A stretch of DNA of 64,000 bases from positions 1-64,000 of the forward strand of contig NZ_CP100003.1 of the NCBI RefSeq assembly GCF_024138165.1, read 5' to 3'. The notes beneath the pieces are model-generated. The model searched no databases. It worked only from the letters and a program-made list of their open reading frames with translations, and was not told the DNA's origin. Position 1 is the first letter of the stretch. Each line of letters begins with the position of its first letter. Positions 12,709 through 24,267 of the stretch are shown here, piece after piece. Made by a program: the position numbers and the translations under genes. This DNA comes from Halorussus vallis (GTDB taxonomy: Archaea > Halobacteriota > Halobacteria > Halobacteriales > Haladaptataceae).

Positions 12709-13116
12709 TCATTCATCGCCGAGTTCCGAAAGCCGAGCTTGGATTTCCTCAGCATCCGCATCAGAGAGCGCTTCTACACCGAACTGGACGAGTAGCGGGT
12801 AGAAGTGGCGGTTCTTCTTAAACTCGTCCTGGCCCGCCTTGCGGAGCTTCAGCTGGGACTCGAGGTAGGTGTCCTCCATCTCGTCGAGGACATCGTCAGG
12901 AATGTAGATCGTTCGCCCGTTCCACTCGTCCTTGATGTTCGTCTCCGTTTTGCTCGTTTCGTTCGTTTCACTCGTTGAAGTCGATTCGTTCGTTTCAGTC
13001 GATGAGCTGGTTTCCACCGTTTCACTCACCTCACTCGTTTCGCTGGAATCAGCCTCATCGTCCTCCTCTTCGTAGTTGCCCTCGATGCCGGAAGCATCGC
13101 CCCAGCCGTCGCTCAT
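12709..13116 (-). CDS. ParA-associated plasmid partition protein
   Basis: The 135-residue protein has an acidic N-terminus, a low-complexity Ser/Thr/Glu linker at about residues 22-60 built on three-residue units such as SET, NET and TET, and a folded C-terminal half with RTIYIPDDVLDEMED that looks like a ribbon-helix-helix-type DNA-binding or small adaptor domain. It overlaps parA by 4 bp (ATGA), so the pair is translationally coupled. The known layout of ParA loci predicts that this is the centromere-binding adaptor. The linker DNA carries the same 9-bp-phased CGTT repeat seen upstream of parA, which is odd and discussed in the findings. Confidence 0.7.
   Translation of the reverse strand: MSDGWGDASGIEGNYEEEDDEADSSETSEVSETVETSSSTETNESTSTSETNETSKTETNIKDEWNGRTIYIPDDVLDEMEDTYLESQLKLRKAGQDEFKKNRHFYPLLVQFGVEALSDADAEEIQARLSELGDE
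12946..13039 (+). repeat. 9-bp-phased CGTT repeats inside the partition protein gene
   Basis: CGTT occurs at 12946, 12955, 12964, 12973, 12991, 13018 and 13036, all in one 9-bp register. On the coding strand this writes the three-residue repeats of the protein's linker. The consensus CGTTTCNNT matches the non-coding array upstream of parA in sequence and orientation. Confidence 0.75.
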
Positions 13117-13931
13117 GCTTCCACCTCCCCAGGTGCGGTCTTCTCAAACGTCTCGTCGAACAGGTCGGCGATTTCGTTGAACAGGTCGCGTGCATCCTCA
13201 ACGCGCTGGTTCTCCTTGCCGAAGCCGAAGACGGATACCCCCTCGCCAATCGACTGGGAGAGGTCGGTCCGCTTCGGAATCTCGAACACTGGAAGGGAGT
13301 ACGCCGACTTGATCTCCTCGATGGTGTCGCGGTGTTCAGCGTTCTGCTCGACACGGTTACAGACGATGGCGAGCCGATTGATGTCTCCGTACGCCTGTTC
13401 GAGGGAGCTCAGCTGCTTTGCGAAAATCTGGAGGCTGTTGGCGTTGAGTTTCTCCGGAATGACGGGGATAACGACGTTGCCGGTCGCGACGAGGGCGTTA
13501 TCGGTAAGGACGTTCAGAGATGGCGGCGTGTCGACGATGATGTAGTCGTAATCCCTATCGAGTTCGTCCAGAGTCATCTCCAGACGTTCCCGACTCTTCG
13601 GCGCCTCAAGCAACGTTTGGATGTTCTTGTTGTTCGCGAGCTTCTCGCTCGCGGGGAGGATGTCGAATTCCTCGTGCTCGACGATGATGTTGTTCACCGA
13701 CTCCATCTGATCGAAGTCGAGGACGTCGAACAGCGTTGTACGGTCGGTATCGTAGTACAGATCGTTGTAGCCGAGTGAGCAGGTGAGCCCTCCGTGATAG
13801 TCGATATCGACCAGGAGCACGTCGTAGCCCCGGGCAGCTAGCGCCCCGCCTGTGTGAATGACGTCAGTCGTCTTCCCAGCGCCTCCCTTCTGATTCGCCA
13901 CGGTGATTCGTGCGGTGTTGGTGTCGGTCAT
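13113..13931 (-). CDS. parA: ParA-family partition ATPase
   Basis: The 272-residue protein carries the deviant Walker A motif KGGAGKTT at residues 15-22, a Walker A' region LLVDIDYHGG (D42, D44), and DYIIVDTPPS as Walker B. ParA ATPases form nucleotide-dependent patterns on the nucleoid and move plasmid copies apart with help from a centromere-binding protein, here probably the overlapping downstream gene. Its size is normal for plasmid ParA proteins of the short type. The start codon lies 7 bp from the first unit of a phased repeat array, so binding of the partner there could both mark the centromere and repress the operon. Confidence 0.9.
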   Translation of the reverse strand: MTDTNTARITVANQKGGAGKTTDVIHTGGALAARGYDVLLVDIDYHGGLTCSLGYNDLYYDTDRTTLFDVLDFDQMESVNNIIVEHEEFDILPASEKLANNKNIQTLLEAPKSRERLEMTLDELDRDYDYIIVDTPPSLNVLTDNALVATGNVVIPVIPEKLNANSLQIFAKQLSSLEQAYGDINRLAIVCNRVEQNAEHRDTIEEIKSAYSLPVFEIPKRTDLSQSIGEGVSVFGFGKENQRVEDARDLFNEIADLFDETFEKTAPGEVEA

Positions 13932-13937
13932 TTCCTT

Positions 13938-13991
13938 CGTTTCCCTCGTTGTGTTCGTTTCGTTCGTTCTAATCGTTCTGTTCGTTTGGTT
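13938..13991 (+). repeat. Phased CGTT array next to the parA start, putative centromere block 1
   Basis: CGTT occurs at 13938, 13947, 13956, 13965, 13974 and 13983, six copies at exactly 9-bp spacing, consensus CGTTNNNNT. It touches the parA start region. Short tandem iterons beside parA are the usual form of plasmid centromeres and ParB-type operators. Confidence 0.75.
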
Positions 13992-14046
13992 CGGTGAGGG
14001 TGTTTCACTCGGTGAGAGGAATACTACGATGTTAAAACCAAGTGTT

Positions 14047-14122
14047 CGTTACACTCGTTGAAGCAAACACACTCGTTGCCATCAACGCATTCGTTCCATT
14101 CATTACGTTCGTTTCCCTCGTT
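14047..14122 (+). repeat. Phased CGTT array, block 2
   Basis: CGTT lies at 14047, 14056, 14074, 14092, 14110 and 14119, all in one 9-bp register; the vacant positions carry related 4-mers such as CATT or CAAC. No gene covers this stretch. Confidence 0.65.
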
Positions 14123-14165
14123 TTGTTCATCGAGTACGGGGCAGCCAGTTCATCCACTACCAGTT

Positions 14166-14241
14166 CGTTTCTCAGAATGCGTTCAATGCATTCGTTTTTC
14201 TCGTTCCGTTCGTTTTGCTCGTTGAATTCGTTATAGTCGTT
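14166..14241 (+). repeat. Phased CGTT array, block 3
   Basis: CGTT lies at 14166, 14193, 14202, 14211, 14220, 14229 and 14238 in a single 9-bp register. Block 3 ends about 110 bp before the next gene. Blocks 1-3 share orientation but are offset from one another by one or two bases. Confidence 0.65.
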
Positions 14242-14353
14242 CCGCGTGTTTTCAGCGGGAATCAGGACTACCTTCGAGACGAAGGGAGAGATCGTGCTTC
14301 ATGGGCAGTCGAGTAAAACTTTTAACTGTTACTGGATTATTGGTAACCACCAG

Positions 14354-15028
14354 ATGTATGAGGTACTCGACGACACGGCGGCACAGACCATCCTCGCCAT
14401 CGAGAGTGGTGACTCCATCCGCCGTGTCGCCCAACACCTCCACACGCCCTACGAGACAGTGAGACAGGCCGTCAATCGGCTGGAAGACGCAGGCTACGTT
14501 TCCTATGACGATGGCCTCACTGTCGTCGACGAGCGCGTACGCGACGCAGCCCGCGAGCTCGTCGCTGCCAGCGCCGGCGTCAGTCCGCCCTCCATCGAAG
14601 AGGCCTACGTCATCCCACAGTTCGGTGACTGGCCGTTCGCGTTTGCGCGGATCGACGCCGTCTACGTGTGGACCCAGGGCGGCTACCAGGTCGGTCGCGA
14701 GCCCAACGACTATCCGTTGTTCCTGGCCGTCCGTGAGCGGGACGTCGACGCCTGGGAGGCGTTTCTCCATTCGTTTGACCTCCCGACCGCATTCGAAAGA
14801 CAGCCCCGAGACGATCTGGACGGACCGCTGCAGATCGTCCTCGAGCCACGCCCCTCACTCGACATTGAGCACGTCGAGGGGTACCCGGTCACCCCGAGAA
14901 CCGAGACGATCGAGTACATGCGCGAGAACTACGCCCAGTTCCAGTCGGCGCTGGCGATGCTCGACCGGATGTACGAGGACCTCGACCTCGGCGTCACGTA
15001 TCGAGAGACCGAACGGGCGCAGCCATGA
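14354..15028 (+). CDS. Winged-helix regulator/antitoxin of an AbiE-like pair
   Basis: I place the start at ATG 14354 because a TATA-like CTTTTAAC lies about 30 bp upstream and the N-terminus then begins directly with the folded domain. Residues 1-70 form a winged helix (SIRRVAQHLHTPYETVRQAVNRLEDAGYV), followed by about 150 residues without a motif I recognise. The stop overlaps the next start by 4 bp (ATGA). A DNA-binding protein coupled to a nucleotidyltransferase is the layout of AbiEi/AbiEii type IV toxin-antitoxin systems, where the first gene is the antitoxin and autorepressor. Assignment is by architecture. Confidence 0.7.
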   Translation: MYEVLDDTAAQTILAIESGDSIRRVAQHLHTPYETVRQAVNRLEDAGYVSYDDGLTVVDERVRDAARELVAASAGVSPPSIEEAYVIPQFGDWPFAFARIDAVYVWTQGGYQVGREPNDYPLFLAVRERDVDAWEAFLHSFDLPTAFERQPRDDLDGPLQIVLEPRPSLDIEHVEGYPVTPRTETIEYMRENYAQFQSALAMLDRMYEDLDLGVTYRETERAQP

Positions 15029-15720
15029 GCTTCAACAACCGAAGTGACGCGCTCATCGAACTGCTCGAAGAGCTCACCAAAGAGGGCCACGAGTACGTTC
15101 TTGTTGGCGGCTACGCTGTCTCAGCGTTCAATGCTCGCTTCTCCACGGACCTCGATATCGTCGTCGCGCCGGATTCCAAAGCTGACTTCGTCGAGTTCCT
15201 TGAACAGCAGGGATTCGAGGAAACGGACAGTCACGCCAAGAAATGGTTCTACGACACCGAAGTAATCGAGTACGAGAAGCGGCTCACGCCGCAGCAGCCG
15301 ATCGGCTTCGATCTCCTGGTAAACGGACTCGGGTGTCGCCAGACGGAGGCACAGTGGTCGTTCGACTACCTGTACGACCACAGCCACCAACAGGAGGTGA
15401 GCGGAGGTACAGTGACGATCACAGCCAGAGTCATCGATGGGGCAGTCCTCGTCGCGGCAAAGCTCCATAGCGGCCGTGAAACAGACCTCCGGGACGTCCT
15501 GGCAGTAGCACAAGAAATCGATCTCGACGCTGTCACGCCTCACCTTCGGCGAGGGGACGAAGATGCGCTACGGGAGCAGCTTGAGCGTGGACTGGAGATC
15601 ATAGAGAGCGATGAACTCAAGCACGGGTATCGGAGTGACTTCGGGGCCTCAGCAGTCTCAGAAGAAACGGTCACCGCTCTCCAAGAGTATCTGTCTGCAC
15701 AGATTAACCACCTGAGCTGA
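15025..15720 (+). CDS. Nucleotidyltransferase, AbiEii-like toxin or substrate-modifying partner
   Basis: The 231-residue protein has the nucleotidyltransferase signature: VLVGGYAVSAFNAR (G28-G29) followed by STDLDIVV with D42 and D44, the metal-binding Asp pair. A third acidic position may be in GFDLLVNGL. In AbiE-type systems such enzymes transfer nucleotides to tRNA or another target and stop growth during phage infection. It is coupled by a 4-bp overlap to the upstream winged-helix gene. A similar pair lies at 40.7-42.4 kb, but the proteins are only distantly alike. The target is unknown. Confidence 0.75.
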   Translation: MSFNNRSDALIELLEELTKEGHEYVLVGGYAVSAFNARFSTDLDIVVAPDSKADFVEFLEQQGFEETDSHAKKWFYDTEVIEYEKRLTPQQPIGFDLLVNGLGCRQTEAQWSFDYLYDHSHQQEVSGGTVTITARVIDGAVLVAAKLHSGRETDLRDVLAVAQEIDLDAVTPHLRRGDEDALREQLERGLEIIESDELKHGYRSDFGASAVSEETVTALQEYLSAQINHLS

Positions 15721-17292: not shown

Positions 17293-17417
17293 AGGCTTCG
17301 TCCGGAGGGCACCCATAAGTACTTCCTGTCATATCAGACGGCAATTCTGGCGGCTGTGAACCGATTCACCTTGCCACTCGAAGAAGAAGCGGATTATCTT
17401 TGTATCGACAGACAGCG

Positions 17418-18095
17418 ATGAATATGGTAGCAACACGAGAGAGGGCCCTTAGCGAACGCGAGTTCGAACTACTGTTAGAAGGTGCTGGGCGAATAGATGA
17501 TACACAACAGAGACTCGAAACACGAGCGGCCATTCTCCTTGGAGGCCGTCTTGGACTTAGACCAGGAGAAACAACGCACTTGTCGAAATCGTGGGTTGAC
17601 CTAGAGCGGCAGATGATCCAGATTCCCACACAGGAAAACTGTACGAAGGGACGGGATGGTGGCATCTGTGGATACTGCCGGCAGGCGGTGAAACAACGGC
17701 TAGATCACAATCCCAATACGGATTTTCAGAGCTTTGCTGAGCGTTATTGGCTCCCGAAAACAGAAGCCGCATCTCGAACAGTTCCGTACCACTTTTCGTA
17801 TCGGGTTCGAGTCGCGGTTGAATTGTTACTCGACGAACATAGTGGCTGGCCGTATTCGTTCTCGACCTTACAGCGACGTCTAGAAACGGCCCTGAAATTG
17901 TCCCCAGAATTGTCTAACGACGCAACCTCATTACATGGATTACGTGCCACAGCAGCGTCGTACCATGCAGGAAGAGGCTTGGATCTTCCCGCACTCCGAG
18001 CAATGTTCGGGTGGGAGGACATCACGACCGCACGTCAATATCTAAATGTCGATGGAGCTATGACCCGACGAGCGCTGGACAGTATTCATCAGTAA
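17418..18095 (+). CDS. Tyrosine recombinase, candidate DNA invertase
   Basis: The 225-residue protein matches the catalytic half of phage-integrase/Xer recombinases: R48 in GLRPGE, H173-x2-R176 in LHGLRATAAS, W199 and the nucleophile Y208 in ARQYLNVDG. It lacks the usual N-terminal core-binding domain and has an unusual insert with three closely spaced Cys (CTKGRDGGICGYC) that may bind zinc. It ends 49 bp from the end of the methyltransferase gene, tail to tail. Its position beside a 54-bp inverted repeat makes it the natural candidate for flipping that segment. It could instead be an integrase remnant of the island. Confidence 0.8.
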   Translation: MNMVATRERALSEREFELLLEGAGRIDDTQQRLETRAAILLGGRLGLRPGETTHLSKSWVDLERQMIQIPTQENCTKGRDGGICGYCRQAVKQRLDHNPNTDFQSFAERYWLPKTEAASRTVPYHFSYRVRVAVELLLDEHSGWPYSFSTLQRRLETALKLSPELSNDATSLHGLRATAASYHAGRGLDLPALRAMFGWEDITTARQYLNVDGAMTRRALDSIHQ

Positions 18096-18144: not shown

Positions 18145-21100
18145 TTACTCCATCGAGCCTACATCTCCAAGATAAGTGTATTTCTCAGCGACCTTCTCGA
18201 AGTACGCTTCCGTCATAATTCGAGGATTCGACACCCGATGGAAGTCATCAAGGACGAACTGCATTTCCTCCTCATCCAACCCATATGCGTGGAACACGGC
18301 CGCGTCGACTTCGGCTTGTAGTTCACGCCGGGTCTCCATATCCGTCGCTGGCTCAATTCCGCCGAGTCGCTCACGCATCTCAGCAAACTCCTCACCGTAG
18401 CAGTTGAGCTTCGCCGCGCGATCAGCGATGTAGTGGAACCAGTCGTCGCCATCAGTGAGTCGGGGGACCTGTGACTCCTCAAACTTGTACTTCGAGGCGT
18501 GAGAATCAACCTTTGTCCGCATCAAGAAATCGAACGGAATACTATTGATCAGCCCAAGCGCGACGAAAAGCTCCTTTTCAGTGAAAACACGGTCGTAAGC
18601 GCTGTGCATCGGGAATTCCGAAAGATCATCCTTGCTAGGGTTTGCCTCGAATGGTCGAACCGTGTACAGCGTATGGACGACGACTCCACCCGGTGGGATT
18701 ACAGCCGCAATGAGCGTCCGTTCGTCGGTTGCACGAGCGACTTCACGAAGCACAAGCCGGTACTCAGAACTATGGAGACGGATGTCCTCCAAAGAAAGTT
18801 CGGGGCGGTCGAATTCTTCTGTTAGCAACCGATTGACGAACCGCTTCTGCGAACTTGCCGGGAGATGGCGGAACTCAGGGTCATCAGCGAACTTGTTGTA
18901 GATAGCCTTCTTCAGGCTGATCGCATCGTCCCGGGCACGGAAGTTCTTCTCTCGAACGCGACGCTTCGCGCTCAGCTCCTCGTTATCCTCATCGACACTC
19001 CACAAAGAGATGGGTTTGAGGTCGTCGACGTAGGTCGACTCATAACAGAATTGGTGAATATTCTTTCCCTGATAGACCGGATAATCCCCTTTGGATTCGT
19101 CTTCGATGAATCTATCCCGATCTCGTCCTCGATCCAGTTCCTTGTACAAGACCGTTCGCCAAGCACCTTCAATTTCAGTCGCCAATGGTGGTGTCTGGAG
19201 AATTTTATCCAGCACTGAGATCTCCTGCTGGTCCTCGATGTTGGGGAAAATTCGAGCTCCAGGAGAATACTCTTTGAGGATTCGCGCTGGAATTTCTAGA
19301 GCTACATCGTCAATTGACCGAAGAACATCAACGGAAGTCTGATGAAATATTCCGTGGACAGTATCAGTGCTTCCCTCTGTTCGGAGCGTAACGATACCGA
19401 AGTTATACCTAGTGTCTATATCGGAGAAAATGCCGCGGTTTTCAAATCCGATGATACTCTGAATCTCAGACTCTTCCAATGCATGTACTCGCAAATCCTT
19501 TCCAGCGGCGGCATTGAAGAACGGACCAGGAAGCAGCTGTGAAACATAACCACCGTCTCTGACGATATCATAGACTCGCTCAAAGAACAGTAGGGACAGG
19601 TCGTTCGTCCGTGCAACCTGTTGTCCTTCTACGCTTGGTGTCTGGTACTCGTATTCTCCACTCTGGTTGATATAGGTCGCTTGCCGTTCCTTGTCACGCT
19701 GGAACTTCTCCCATTCGGCAGCGATTTCAGGGTTCTCTAAGAGCTCCTCTACCTTCTTGTCCTTTTCACCTGGTGGGCGGCTACGAAACTCAGTATCGTA
19801 CTTTGGGAAGAAGTCCGTCCGGTATGGCTTCAGCTCATCCCACGGTGGATTCCCAATGATGACATCAAAGCCGCCTTCCCGATAGACTGTCGCGAACTCA
19901 AGCACCCAATGAAACGGTGAGGACTCCTCTAATTCCTCAAGAGAAATATCCTCATCGACAAGTTCGTTGAACTGATCGCGGATCTTCTCATTAAGCTCCT
20001 CGCTGTGGGTGTCGATTTTTCGTTCAGCCATTTTACGAGCATTCTGCGCTTCACGGGCAGAATCCGCAGCTCGATGGCGGTCCTGTTCCCGGATGACATC
20101 CTCATAGAGATCTTTGACTGCAGTTCCGACACCCCAATTCGAGAGTGACGCGTCGCCCGCATCTTCCCGTGCGACTTCTTGGAGCTCAGTAAACCCGATC
20201 AGTGAGTTACCCTGACGGATGTTAAAATCAATATTTGGGAGGGGTTCGACCTCGTTCGGTTCGTCCTCGATATCAGCGACCATCGACAGCCACAGGCGTA
20301 GTTTACAGATTTCGACTGCCCCGTCCCCAATATCGACTCCATAGAGATTGTGAAGGATGATAGAACGCTTTGCGAAAAGTGAGACCCCTCCATGTCCCTC
20401 TTCTATTCTCTCCAATTCTTCACGGCTACGACTCTCCAACTCCCAGCCTTTCCCTTCAGCTTCGAGCCGCTGGAAATACTCAATGCATTGCATGTATAGG
20501 TCCATCAGCACCTCCTGTGCGGCGAGCAGGAAGGCGCCACTTCCTACGGCGGGATCGAGAATATGCGCTTCCTTCAGAATGTCGTGGTAGAGAGTCTCCA
20601 CATGGCTGGTTTGGACGTTTTCCGTTGGAACTTGCTGAGTTATGGTTCCGCCATCGGCAACAGCTTCTGTGCTGGTATCTGCCTCCGGCACGGGGAATCC
20701 GAACACATTGTCGATCTCGTCATAGTCCGCGTCCACAGCCTCGTTGAGTTGATCGAGCAGATACGGATGGATCGTCCGCCGGGCCATGAACCCCGTGATC
20801 TCTTCCGGTGTGTAGTACGCCCCCATCTCCTTCTGATTGACCGTTTGCTCGAAGATGTGGCCCAAGATCGCCGGGGAGAGGTTCTTGGGATCGACGATGT
20901 CGAGTCGTTCGTCTACGTTCCAATTCCAGTCGGAGAGGAAGTCGAGGATATCGTCGAAGAGCCCGTTCGTTTCCTCGGCAGAGACACCTAATTTCGCGTC
21001 CTCAAACTCCTCTTCGACAGGATTCCTTGCGAACAAGCCACCGTTCAGGTACGGAAGACTACCGAAGTCAGGGTTCTGTTTGTCTTCTGCGAGGTATTCG

Positions 21101-21798
21101 AAGAAGAGCGGCTCGTAGAACTCTTCGTAGTGGTCACAACCCTCGTCAACGACTTCATTCGGCTGTTCGTGAAGGTAATTCGGGTCCCGATCAAGGAGGC
21201 GCTTTTCCTGGATGAAGTATAGGAATATCATCCGGTCAAGAATGACCTGCACATATCGTTGCTTCGCATCACCCCGATCGTCAGGGATGCCTGTAACCTC
21301 TTGAATGAGATCTGTCCTGAGTTCCTCGAACTGTTCATAGAACTCCTTGACGACCTGTTGCGTGTCGTAGAGCGTATCGTATATCGCAGCAGAGGAACCG
21401 TACTCGATCGAGTTCAGCTTCTGGAGAATAGTGTTCTTCTCTCCGCTGTCCCGCGTGAACTGCTCCTTCGAGAACGAAATCTTTTGATGCTTAATTCGAC
21501 CGTGCTGCTGCCCCTCCCAGCTTCGGACTCGGGTAATGAAGGTGAAGATCTCGAAATCGTTGGTGGCAACAAGGTTGGTATGCCGTGAGCGATTTTCCGG
21601 TTTGAAGTCTGTGGCAGTCTCCCCGGGGCCCGCGTTGACAATGACGATGAATTCGTCATCATCAAGCTGGACTACGAGTTCGTTATCGCCCCCAAGTTTC
21701 GGGCGTGGTTTGAGCCCGCGTTTTTCAAAGGAGTTCGCTATATCCTGTAAAGAGTCCCAGCCCGCGATATCGGATGCGGTGATCTGCTGGAGAGTCAT
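18145..21798 (-). CDS. Eco57I/PglX-type adenine DNA methyltransferase, expressed copy
   Basis: The 1217-residue protein is a large class I DNA methyltransferase. Residues 1-330 are an N-terminal helical domain; the SAM-binding motif I is LDPAVGSGAFL (D415); the catalytic motif IV is GNPPW (N650-W653), indicating N6-adenine methylation. The C-terminal 500 residues include the target-recognition region. Size and layout match Eco57I-type or BREX PglX enzymes. The nearby gene with PLD and SNF2 helicase domains is the likely restriction partner, as in DISARM-like systems, though other DISARM genes are absent. Residues 436-453 are encoded by a perfect 54-bp inverted repeat shared with a truncated opposed copy, allowing C-terminal swapping. 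Confidence 0.85.
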   Translation of the reverse strand: MTLQQITASDIAGWDSLQDIANSFEKRGLKPRPKLGGDNELVVQLDDDEFIVIVNAGPGETATDFKPENRSRHTNLVATNDFEIFTFITRVRSWEGQQHGRIKHQKISFSKEQFTRDSGEKNTILQKLNSIEYGSSAAIYDTLYDTQQVVKEFYEQFEELRTDLIQEVTGIPDDRGDAKQRYVQVILDRMIFLYFIQEKRLLDRDPNYLHEQPNEVVDEGCDHYEEFYEPLFFEYLAEDKQNPDFGSLPYLNGGLFARNPVEEEFEDAKLGVSAEETNGLFDDILDFLSDWNWNVDERLDIVDPKNLSPAILGHIFEQTVNQKEMGAYYTPEEITGFMARRTIHPYLLDQLNEAVDADYDEIDNVFGFPVPEADTSTEAVADGGTITQQVPTENVQTSHVETLYHDILKEAHILDPAVGSGAFLLAAQEVLMDLYMQCIEYFQRLEAEGKGWELESRSREELERIEEGHGGVSLFAKRSIILHNLYGVDIGDGAVEICKLRLWLSMVADIEDEPNEVEPLPNIDFNIRQGNSLIGFTELQEVAREDAGDASLSNWGVGTAVKDLYEDVIREQDRHRAADSAREAQNARKMAERKIDTHSEELNEKIRDQFNELVDEDISLEELEESSPFHWVLEFATVYREGGFDVIIGNPPWDELKPYRTDFFPKYDTEFRSRPPGEKDKKVEELLENPEIAAEWEKFQRDKERQATYINQSGEYEYQTPSVEGQQVARTNDLSLLFFERVYDIVRDGGYVSQLLPGPFFNAAAGKDLRVHALEESEIQSIIGFENRGIFSDIDTRYNFGIVTLRTEGSTDTVHGIFHQTSVDVLRSIDDVALEIPARILKEYSPGARIFPNIEDQQEISVLDKILQTPPLATEIEGAWRTVLYKELDRGRDRDRFIEDESKGDYPVYQGKNIHQFCYESTYVDDLKPISLWSVDEDNEELSAKRRVREKNFRARDDAISLKKAIYNKFADDPEFRHLPASSQKRFVNRLLTEEFDRPELSLEDIRLHSSEYRLVLREVARATDERTLIAAVIPPGGVVVHTLYTVRPFEANPSKDDLSEFPMHSAYDRVFTEKELFVALGLINSIPFDFLMRTKVDSHASKYKFEESQVPRLTDGDDWFHYIADRAAKLNCYGEEFAEMRERLGGIEPATDMETRRELQAEVDAAVFHAYGLDEEEMQFVLDDFHRVSNPRIMTEAYFEKVAEKYTYLGDVGSME
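20440..20493 (-). repeat. Inverted repeat IR-1 inside the methyltransferase gene
   Basis: 54 bp beginning ATGCAATGCATTGAGTATTT on the minus strand are identical to 21961-22014 on the plus strand. Identity ends sharply at both edges. It encodes MQCIEYFQRLEAEGKGWE in the frame of the full-length gene, 20 codons after the SAM-binding motif. Confidence 0.9.
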
Positions 21799-21957
21799 AC
21801 CACCTGAAAGTTGCTTTACTCATATGAAAATGATGGATATGAGGGTGGCTTTCGACTGCACTGGTCAATACACTTGTTGAATAGATTGTAAGAAGCAGCT
21901 TGTATTTCACCGGCAATCGTAGATAAAGTCGAAAACAGCCAATAGCGAGACGATCAG

Positions 21958-24267
21958 TTGATGCAATGCATTGAGTATTTCCAGCGGCTCGAAGCTGAAG
22001 GGAAAGGCTGGGAGCTAGAATCCAGAACGCGAGAAGAGATAGAGGTAATCGAGTCTGGAAAAGGCTCCTCATCATTGTACGCAAAGCGAACGGCCATCCT
22101 CAACAATTTGTACGGAGTCGATATCGACGAAGGTGCTGTTGAGATCTGCAAGCTCAGGCTCTGGTTGTCGATGGTCGCTGATATCGAGGATGAACCGAGC
22201 GAGGTGGAGCCACTCCCCAACATCGATTTCAACGTACGACAGGGCAACAGCCTAATCGGTCAACTCGATACGGACATCGAGAGTAACGAAGACGGAGACA
22301 GCGATCTCGATTCTTGGGAGGTGAAAACTCGTTTTGAGGATGTGAAAGAGGCTATCGAGAAGCACAAGAAAGCGGAGACCAGTATTGAAGCTCAAGAATG
22401 GCGGAAGGAGGCAGAAGACAGAATAGAGGAACACCGGGACAAATTTGACGAAATCCTTCGGCGAGAATTCCAAGACGCTGGCTTTGACGACATAACGATC
22501 GAGGAAATTCGGGAGTGGTCCCCCTTCCACTGGCCGTTGGAGTTCGCCGACGTCTTCGAGAAAGGTGGATTCGACGTGTTCATCGGGAACCCACCATGGG
22601 ACATGCTCTACGCGAATCGCGACGACTTCTTCATCCGCTACGATGAGCAGTTCCGTACCTATCCGTCGGAGGAAAAAGACGGTGTGATGGAAAACCTCCT
22701 CTCAAGCCCAGAAGTTGCGTGGGAATGGGAGGACTACAAGGGCTCGATGGAAACTCAGGCAGACTTCTTCACGCAGGGAGACGTCTACAAGCTCCAATCT
22801 CCGGTGGTGGGCGGTCGGACGATGCCGACAAAAAATGAACTGTCTGCTCTCTTTCTAGAGCGGGTCTTCAGACTCTCTCGAGACGGCGTGAGGGTGAGTC
22901 TGCTCCTCCCGGGAACTATCTTCGGTGGAGTGATGGGGAAAGACCTCCGGACACATCTACTGGATCACACAGACGTAGAGAATCTCATTGGATTCGAAAA
23001 TAAGGGCATCTTTGAGGCGATTGACGATCGCTATCGATTTGCTGTACTGACGTTTAAATACGGAGGGAGGACGTCAGTACTTCGCGGCATCTTCAACCAG
23101 CATAACATGGACATCGTATATCGAATCGAGGAGGAAGCAGTTACTATCCCACGAGAGGTGCTTCTTAGCTACTCGCCTGAGGGGCGGATATTCCCTTCAA
23201 TCACCTCACAGATGGAAGCAAGCGTCTTAGAGAAAGTGGTTGACCAACCGTCTTTGGGAGAAGGGGTGGAGGGGGCCTGGACAGTAGATATGCTGACGAA
23301 GGAATTTGTAGAATCGACTGACAAGGACCGATTACAGAATACACCTGAAGGTGCTGACTACCCAGTTTACGGGGGTAAAAATATCCATCAATTCCAGCAC
23401 GATAATAGCCTCAATAGTGACTTAGCAGGTCCTGAGTACTGGAGTAAGGGACTCCAGGATCCGCCGAATAGTGCACAATATCGTGTCCGGGAAAAGAAGT
23501 TCAATAGAGGCCACCTGAAACGAGCAATCTACGAGGCATTCGGTGGGCCAGAAACCAGCAAGTCACAAGTACAATTCGTGGACGAACTCCTCAAGGAACA
23601 TCGTGGCCACGGATTAGAAGAAGAAGATGTACTCCTTGATTGTGACGAGTATCGCGTCGGAATTCGAGACGTTACGAACTCCACAAATGAGCGGACGATA
23701 ATCGCCACTGTACTCCCGAAAGACATCATCTGCCTCCATACGATTAACACGTTCAAACCGTTCGATATTAGGCCCAAAGAGGGACACCTCTCAGAGTCTC
23801 CGCTTCGGTCACCCTACATCCGGCGATTCACGGATCGGGAACTCTTCGTGGCGACTGGACTCCTGAATAGCATTGCGTTCGATTTCCTGATGCGGACCAA
23901 GGTCGAGACGCACATCATCAAGCGTGAGCTACTGGAATCCCAGCTACCACGCCTCACCGACGGAGATGACTGGTTCCATTATATCGCTGAACGAGCTGCC
24001 CGGTTGAACTGTTACGGGGAAGAATTCAAAGAAATTCGTGAGCGACTCAGCGGAATCGAGGCAGCGGTAGAAGATCAAGAGCGCAGAGAATTACAGGCTG
24101 AAATCGACGCGGCCGCATTCCACGCGTATGGCCTGGAACGTCGTGACGTGAAGTTTGTCCTCGACGACTTCCATCGCGTTGAGAATCCGAAGCTGATGGA
24201 CGAGATGTACTTCGATCTGATCTTGGAGAAATATGATCTGCTGGACCAGAAGGGGCCCCTACCGTAG
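21958..24267 (+). CDS. Silent methyltransferase C-terminal cassette lacking the N-terminal part
   Basis: The 769-residue frame is homologous to residues 436-1217 of the neighbouring methyltransferase, including GNPPW (N211) and DWFHYIAERAARLNCYGEE, but diverges strongly in the putative target-recognition region. It lacks the first 435 residues and the SAM motif DPAVGSG, so alone it cannot be an active methyltransferase. It has only a TTG/ATG at the repeat edge and no clear promoter. The frame is fully open over 2.3 kb, which argues that it is kept by selection. Inversion between IR-1 and IR-2 would fuse it in frame to the missing N-terminal part, giving about 1200 residues. Confidence 0.85.
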   Translation: MMQCIEYFQRLEAEGKGWELESRTREEIEVIESGKGSSSLYAKRTAILNNLYGVDIDEGAVEICKLRLWLSMVADIEDEPSEVEPLPNIDFNVRQGNSLIGQLDTDIESNEDGDSDLDSWEVKTRFEDVKEAIEKHKKAETSIEAQEWRKEAEDRIEEHRDKFDEILRREFQDAGFDDITIEEIREWSPFHWPLEFADVFEKGGFDVFIGNPPWDMLYANRDDFFIRYDEQFRTYPSEEKDGVMENLLSSPEVAWEWEDYKGSMETQADFFTQGDVYKLQSPVVGGRTMPTKNELSALFLERVFRLSRDGVRVSLLLPGTIFGGVMGKDLRTHLLDHTDVENLIGFENKGIFEAIDDRYRFAVLTFKYGGRTSVLRGIFNQHNMDIVYRIEEEAVTIPREVLLSYSPEGRIFPSITSQMEASVLEKVVDQPSLGEGVEGAWTVDMLTKEFVESTDKDRLQNTPEGADYPVYGGKNIHQFQHDNSLNSDLAGPEYWSKGLQDPPNSAQYRVREKKFNRGHLKRAIYEAFGGPETSKSQVQFVDELLKEHRGHGLEEEDVLLDCDEYRVGIRDVTNSTNERTIIATVLPKDIICLHTINTFKPFDIRPKEGHLSESPLRSPYIRRFTDRELFVATGLLNSIAFDFLMRTKVETHIIKRELLESQLPRLTDGDDWFHYIAERAARLNCYGEEFKEIRERLSGIEAAVEDQERRELQAEIDAAAFHAYGLERRDVKFVLDDFHRVENPKLMDEMYFDLILEKYDLLDQKGPLP
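21961..22014 (+). repeat. Inverted repeat IR-2 at the start of the silent methyltransferase cassette
   Basis: The plus-strand partner of IR-1, 54 of 54 identical. It sits at the first codons of the truncated cassette and reads in the same frame as in the full gene. The invertible segment between the repeats is 1467 bp (20494-21960) and holds the promoter and codons 1-435 of the expressed gene. Confidence 0.9.

Follow-up and report, generated by a model that had tools for sequence, protein, structure and literature searches.

A phased 9-bp repeat upstream of a haloarchaeal plasmid parA recurs in the linker-coding sequence of its partner gene

We analyzed a two-gene partition locus within a 64,000-nucleotide stretch of Halorussus vallis plasmid DNA (hereafter, the window). 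The parA gene and a small partner gene lying immediately 3΄ of it form one operon, in which the partner ATG overlaps the parA stop codon; the same order, parA and then partner, was found in nearly all homologous loci parsed. The features of the locus are as follows:

13113-13931, minus strand: parA, encoding a 272-aa ParA/MinD-type ATPase with a Walker motif near residue 15
12709-13116, minus strand: partner gene, taken from the list of open reading frames, encoding a putative centromere-binding adaptor of 135 aa
12712-12936, minus strand: folded C-terminal domain of the partner (AlphaFold2, pLDDT about 77-92 over most of it)
12937-13071, minus strand: residues 16-60 of the partner, a disordered Ser/Thr/Glu/Asn linker that carries the in-gene array
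12946-13039, minus strand: in-gene array of 7 in-phase AACG units in a 9-bp register, with the codon consensus xxA ACG ARx
13938-13986, minus strand: upstream array block 1, with 6 units, immediately ahead of the parA start codon
14047-14122, minus strand: upstream array block 2, with 6 in-phase units in 9 slots
14166-14241, minus strand: upstream array block 3, with 7 in-phase units in 9 slots

The parA product (272 aa) matched the Pfam family AAA_31 over residues 9-179 (1.8e-35) and the ParA-like PHROG 164 (1.6e-46), and an N-terminal DNA-binding domain is absent from it. The partner had no Pfam family match, and its PHROG matches were solely to families of unknown function; when 13 members of the partner family were searched, RHH_5 of Pfam was matched in one of them at 0.088. 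In the AlphaFold2 model of the partner, pLDDT falls below 50 at residues 24-32 and 35-55, and the C-terminal domain is predicted to contain a strand (68-73), which is lost when the domain is modelled alone, and two helices (74-93 and 101-112). Neither the full nor the domain-only model had a structural match in the PDB (Foldseek and VIA-align), and a profile search against PDB sequences gave no match of note. As neither a known family nor a solved structure resembles the partner, we infer its DNA-binding fold: the predicted strand-helix-helix order, as in ribbon-helix-helix adaptors, suggests that the C-terminal domain is probably of this type. Residues 1-67 contain no Arg and hence no arginine finger candidate in the tail, although the tails of two diverged subfamilies, B and C (see below), do contain Arg.

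The plasmid contig (G000:C4, 167465 bp) is over-circularised, its first 46 kb recurring as its last 46 kb, and the true circle is therefore about 121,284 bp. A second parAB copy at C4:133996, considered as a duplication, was accordingly rejected as a product of this end overlap. Two Orc1/Cdc6 genes are present on the plasmid, about 16 and 24 kb from the arrays. Adjoining the partition locus on the plus strand (14246-15720), a divergently transcribed winged-helix-like protein is encoded, followed by an AbiEii/DUF6036-like nucleotidyltransferase, and the two are possibly a toxin-antitoxin pair. Farther away, inverted repeats at 20206-20493 and 21961-22248 are 76% identical, and the segment that they span (20206-22248), which lies between two type IIG restriction-methyltransferase-like genes (18145-21798, minus strand; 21958-24267, plus strand), is flipped between the two overlapping ends of the contig. 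With a tyrosine recombinase gene nearby (17400-18095), this segment looks like a phase-variable specificity switch.

We counted the repeat units at the locus. Upstream of parA, CGTT starts in 9-bp phase at 13938-13983 in block 1 (6 starts), at 14047-14119 in block 2 (6) and at 14166 and 14193-14238 in block 3 (7), which gives 19 in-phase and 4 off-phase copies in total. In the partner gene, seven copies share one phase (12946, 12955, 12964, 12973, 12991, 13018 and 13036) and two more lie outside it; two near-matches, ATCGA at 12982 and at 13000, are also in phase. The upstream and in-gene arrays have the same consensus and the same strand orientation, with AACGA on the coding strand, where the unit is slightly longer than CGTT and reads AACGAR followed by three variable bases. 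This recount agrees with the initial annotation, which had reported at least 19 upstream copies, spread over three blocks, and 7 more within the partner gene, all with one 9-bp register, consensus and orientation. Its further statement that the operon is bracketed by sites on both sides had to be narrowed: the second array sits inside the second gene, within the operon, and the arrays therefore flank only parA. From the 9-bp step, the annotation further predicted that bound proteins would spiral around the DNA.

The repetition is far beyond chance. Pairs of units at lag 9 numbered 12 upstream, compared with 0.19 expected from dinucleotide shuffles (0 of 1000 reached 12), and 3 in the linker, compared with 0.08 expected (0 of 1000 reached 3). 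The pattern TCGTTN4TCGTT was matched 16 times in the window against 0.24 expected, and 14 of the 16 matches fell in the upstream and linker regions. Throughout the 5.05-Mb genome, three-unit arrays occurred only in the region upstream of parA and in the partner linker, each being counted twice in the scan because of the contig end overlap.

We then compared the linker DNA with that of homologues from many Halobacteria genera, using 40 distinct genes of equal linker length for codon-column counts. The reading frame of the array is nnA ACG ARn, and the linker is therefore built in three-residue steps, X-Thr-(Ser/Asn/Lys/Arg), which yields a Ser/Thr/Glu/Asn repeat. When the linker was recoded with synonymous codons, a mean of 1.7 in-phase units was obtained compared with the 7 observed, and none of 5000 recoded sequences reached 7. 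Each in-phase ACG is preceded by an A-ending codon (codons 26, 32, 41, 47, 50, 53 and 56), and in the 40 homologous genes, which are related and whose counts are thus pooled rather than independent events, A is the last base of these codons in 279 of 280 cases, though E, K, G, S, P and V alternate there. Of 15 residue changes at motif-core codons (E to K, G or V; S to P or E), 14 left the third base as it was, whereas it was retained in 52% of changes at other linker codons and in 61% of those in the remainder of the gene. The mean synonymous entropy was 0.11-0.24 bits for linker codons versus 0.59 for the folded domain. Across genera, synonymous positions within the motif core hardly change, whereas the spacer bases vary. 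Some homologues differ by whole 9-bp units, and the total unit count was not above the codon null in the linker L008 and marginally above it in L109.

In the linker, the constraint on DNA thus looks stronger than that on protein. Since the DNA letters were kept where the protein letters changed, this stretch seems to have two functions, one as protein and one as a centromere-like DNA site. The proposal in the initial annotation that the linker doubles as a DNA site is to this extent upheld: when relatives were examined for linkers lacking the CGTT phase, the related linkers (40 genes) were found to keep the phased motif in their DNA beyond amino-acid need, and diverged subfamilies to carry their own upstream word instead.

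These diverged partner subfamilies are B ('VGTYMYLPE') and C ('NVNMYLPD'), the latter taking in the virus contigs L021-L024; when further viral relatives were looked for, few distinct ones were found. The linkers of both are likewise built in three-residue steps with different words, TCAAAACCG/TCCAAACCG-like in B and TCAAAGACA-like in C. Each subfamily also has its own linker codon use, distinct from that of the remaining module; in subfamily C, for example, TCA accounts for 47% versus 13%, ACA for 56% versus 18% and GCA for 66% versus 21%. Under synonymous codon permutation within the linker, an excess of identical codons was seen at a lag of 3 codons (z = 3.2 in A, 1.6 in B and 5.1 in C) and at one of 6 codons (z = 3.7, 3.7 and 2.4, respectively), and the sole other lag above z = 1 was lag 5 in B (z = 2.1).

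We further evaluated a pooled k-mer test, in which k-mers were taken solely from the 90 bp upstream of parA and their enrichment in linkers was measured over synonymous recoding. For upstream 5-mers and 6-mers of the same subfamily, the z values were 12.1 and 10.3 in A, 3.5 and 4.8 in B and 13.9 and 11.5 in C, the upstream k-mers of B and C including promoter elements besides possible operators; cross-subfamily z values lay between -1.8 and 2.0. Generic 6-mer sharing between a linker and its own 330-bp upstream region was clear in A (z from 2.2 to 8.6), and this comparison was underpowered in B and C except for L012 and L166. A k-mer matrix of this kind is not what slippage, the codon bias of the genome or constraint on the protein would yield. 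Judging from these sequences, the upstream word and the linker word of one operon have changed together in three subfamilies. Subfamily B gave the weakest signal, and its members L013, L118, L123 and L124 have linkers without a clear array; the in-gene sites are therefore not essential in every part of the family. The upstream region of subfamily C has only a few sites, beside the start codon.

Across 194 Halobacteria genomes, 118 of the 144 four-unit AACGA arrays listed lie at parA-partner loci, 30 of them in the partner gene and 88 upstream of its parA, and the remaining 26 of those listed lie elsewhere, including low-complexity coding repeats. In homologous upstream regions, conservation is good for the blocks at about -10 to -60 and -119 to -191, and the distal block (about -220 to -310) is more variable. 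On plasmid 1 of Halalkalicoccus jeotgali (NC_014298.1), the array of linker L008 is largely lost, and no three-unit array is left at the parA locus. The same plasmid carries two free-standing intergenic AACGA arrays far from parA, at 148358-148398 and 163663-163694 (L206 and L207). Four-unit AACGA arrays were also observed within a disordered-looking part of a large gene, at about 1025-1060 of L208 (NZ_CP083669.1 near 17024; gene annotated as an ATP-binding protein) and at about 894-930 of L209 (reverse complement), on two plasmids that both also carry the partner. In L210 and L211, the same four-unit array lies near the C-terminal end of another plasmid ORF, which has no Pfam match, and no close partner gene is among those listed on their contigs.

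Taken together, the array with its register, orientation and locus specificity, the synonymous constraint and the co-variation of linker and upstream words in three subfamilies, all read directly from DNA, make it fairly probable that this is a type Ib-like ParA/adaptor partition system in which the adaptor binds both arrays, so that the linker DNA would also be an operator or centromere. The system would consist of a small ParA ATPase and a small adaptor with a disordered N-terminal half and a folded C-terminal domain. The adaptor would bind AACGAR units laid every 9 bp and couple the arrays to ParA, which would drive segregation. The three upstream blocks would serve as operator and centromere, and a fourth block, embedded in the adaptor's own coding sequence, may contribute extra centromere units, autoregulation or both. 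DNA binding by the partner and centromere function are what we infer here.

Alternatively, the in-gene array might be bound by the partner only to control transcription of the operon, through a roadblock or looping with the upstream blocks, and take no part in segregation. The identical word and orientation of the in-gene and upstream units, the position of block 1 directly before the parA start codon and the few sites beside the start codon in subfamily C are consistent with this explanation, which we nevertheless consider unlikely, since the intergenic arrays far from parA on the Halalkalicoccus plasmid, as well as those that lie within a plasmid gene of another kind, have the look of dispersed centromere units and not of parA operators. 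It is very unlikely that an initiator of the Orc1/Cdc6 or RepH type binds the arrays as replication iterons and that parA simply happens to lie next to them: although origins typically feature direct-repeat arrays close to plasmid backbone genes and the plasmid has two Orc1/Cdc6 genes, these genes lie at the distances given above, the word co-varies with the subfamily of the partner, whose gene carries it, and the arrays track the parA-partner pair across genomes. The idea of a plain protein repeat, a Ser/Thr/Glu tract grown by 9-bp slippage whose upstream resemblance reflects common descent or coincidence, hardly deserves credence, because, common as low-complexity linkers are and despite the whole-unit differences among some homologues, the core synonymous positions are near invariant next to variable spacers, the third base stays when the residue changes, and the linker word matches non-coding upstream words separately in three subfamilies.

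The proposed partition system resembles type Ib systems (ParF/ParG of TP228 and delta/omega of pSM19035; PMC5016525) in its small ParA, its small adaptor, whose N-terminal tail is unstructured and whose C-terminal domain is predicted to be strand-helix-helix, and a repeat centromere upstream of the operon, for which three conserved blocks are present here as sequence. It differs from them in its 9-bp AACGAR unit, in having part of the array inside the adaptor gene, where it encodes the tail, in being archaeal, and in the absence of arginine from the tail in this subfamily; the flexible tail of type Ib adaptors has an arginine finger, by which the ATPase is stimulated. As a candidate for this finger is absent and the fold is only predicted, we liken the module to type Ib and do not file it as a member. 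Sulfolobus SegAB (PMC5120986, PMC9178275) also pairs an archaeal ParA-type ATPase with a small site-specific partner, SegB, whose fold is ribbon-helix-helix; however, the SegB sites are chromosomal, imperfect palindromes upstream of segA, and no in-gene array is described in these papers (PMC5120986, PMC9178275). StbA of R388, a plasmid stability protein, likewise binds 9-bp direct repeats, which occur in sets ahead of its operon (PMC3098194), but these stbDRs (5΄-TTGCATCAT) are spaced by two bases, giving an 11-bp step, and no coding-sequence array is described in that paper (PMC3098194). The StbB ATPase of R388 is not required for stability (PMC3098194).

Sites inside genes have precedents in the lambda ori and a putative mycobacterial parS. 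In B. subtilis, parS lies in spo0J. The putative mycobacterial parS is located within parA, so that a centromere site would again lie in the coding sequence of a partition gene (PMC2346475). Both of these are single ParB sites, whereas here a phased array sets the amino-acid repeat of a disordered linker. In the phage lambda ori, repeated sites lie inside gene O, the gene of the binding protein, as in the present case (PMC5043065); however, these are 19-bp iterons of inverted symmetry that function in replication (PMC5043065), in contrast to the short direct 9-bp units here, which are also found upstream and belong to a partition operon. In the open-access literature that we searched, we found neither a haloarchaeal ParA partner described with 9-bp repeats nor a phased array setting the linker sequence of its own binding protein, and no haloarchaeal plasmid partition system whose centromere had been worked out.

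For dozens of plasmids, the present reading predicts the sites, the word, the register and the adaptor. It would also provide a clean case in which a predicted DNA-binding array and a disordered protein segment share one set of bases, on which the DNA function apparently imposes the stronger constraint. If the linker is a binding array for its own protein, adaptor specificity and linker sequence would evolve together. We tentatively suggest, as a possibility still short of a probable one, that in this adaptor family of haloarchaeal plasmids and viruses the linker is primarily a centromere and secondarily a protein, that its repeat is a by-product of the adaptor's own 9-bp array, and that where upstream sites are few, as in the viral-type subfamily C, the in-gene array may be the main centromere.
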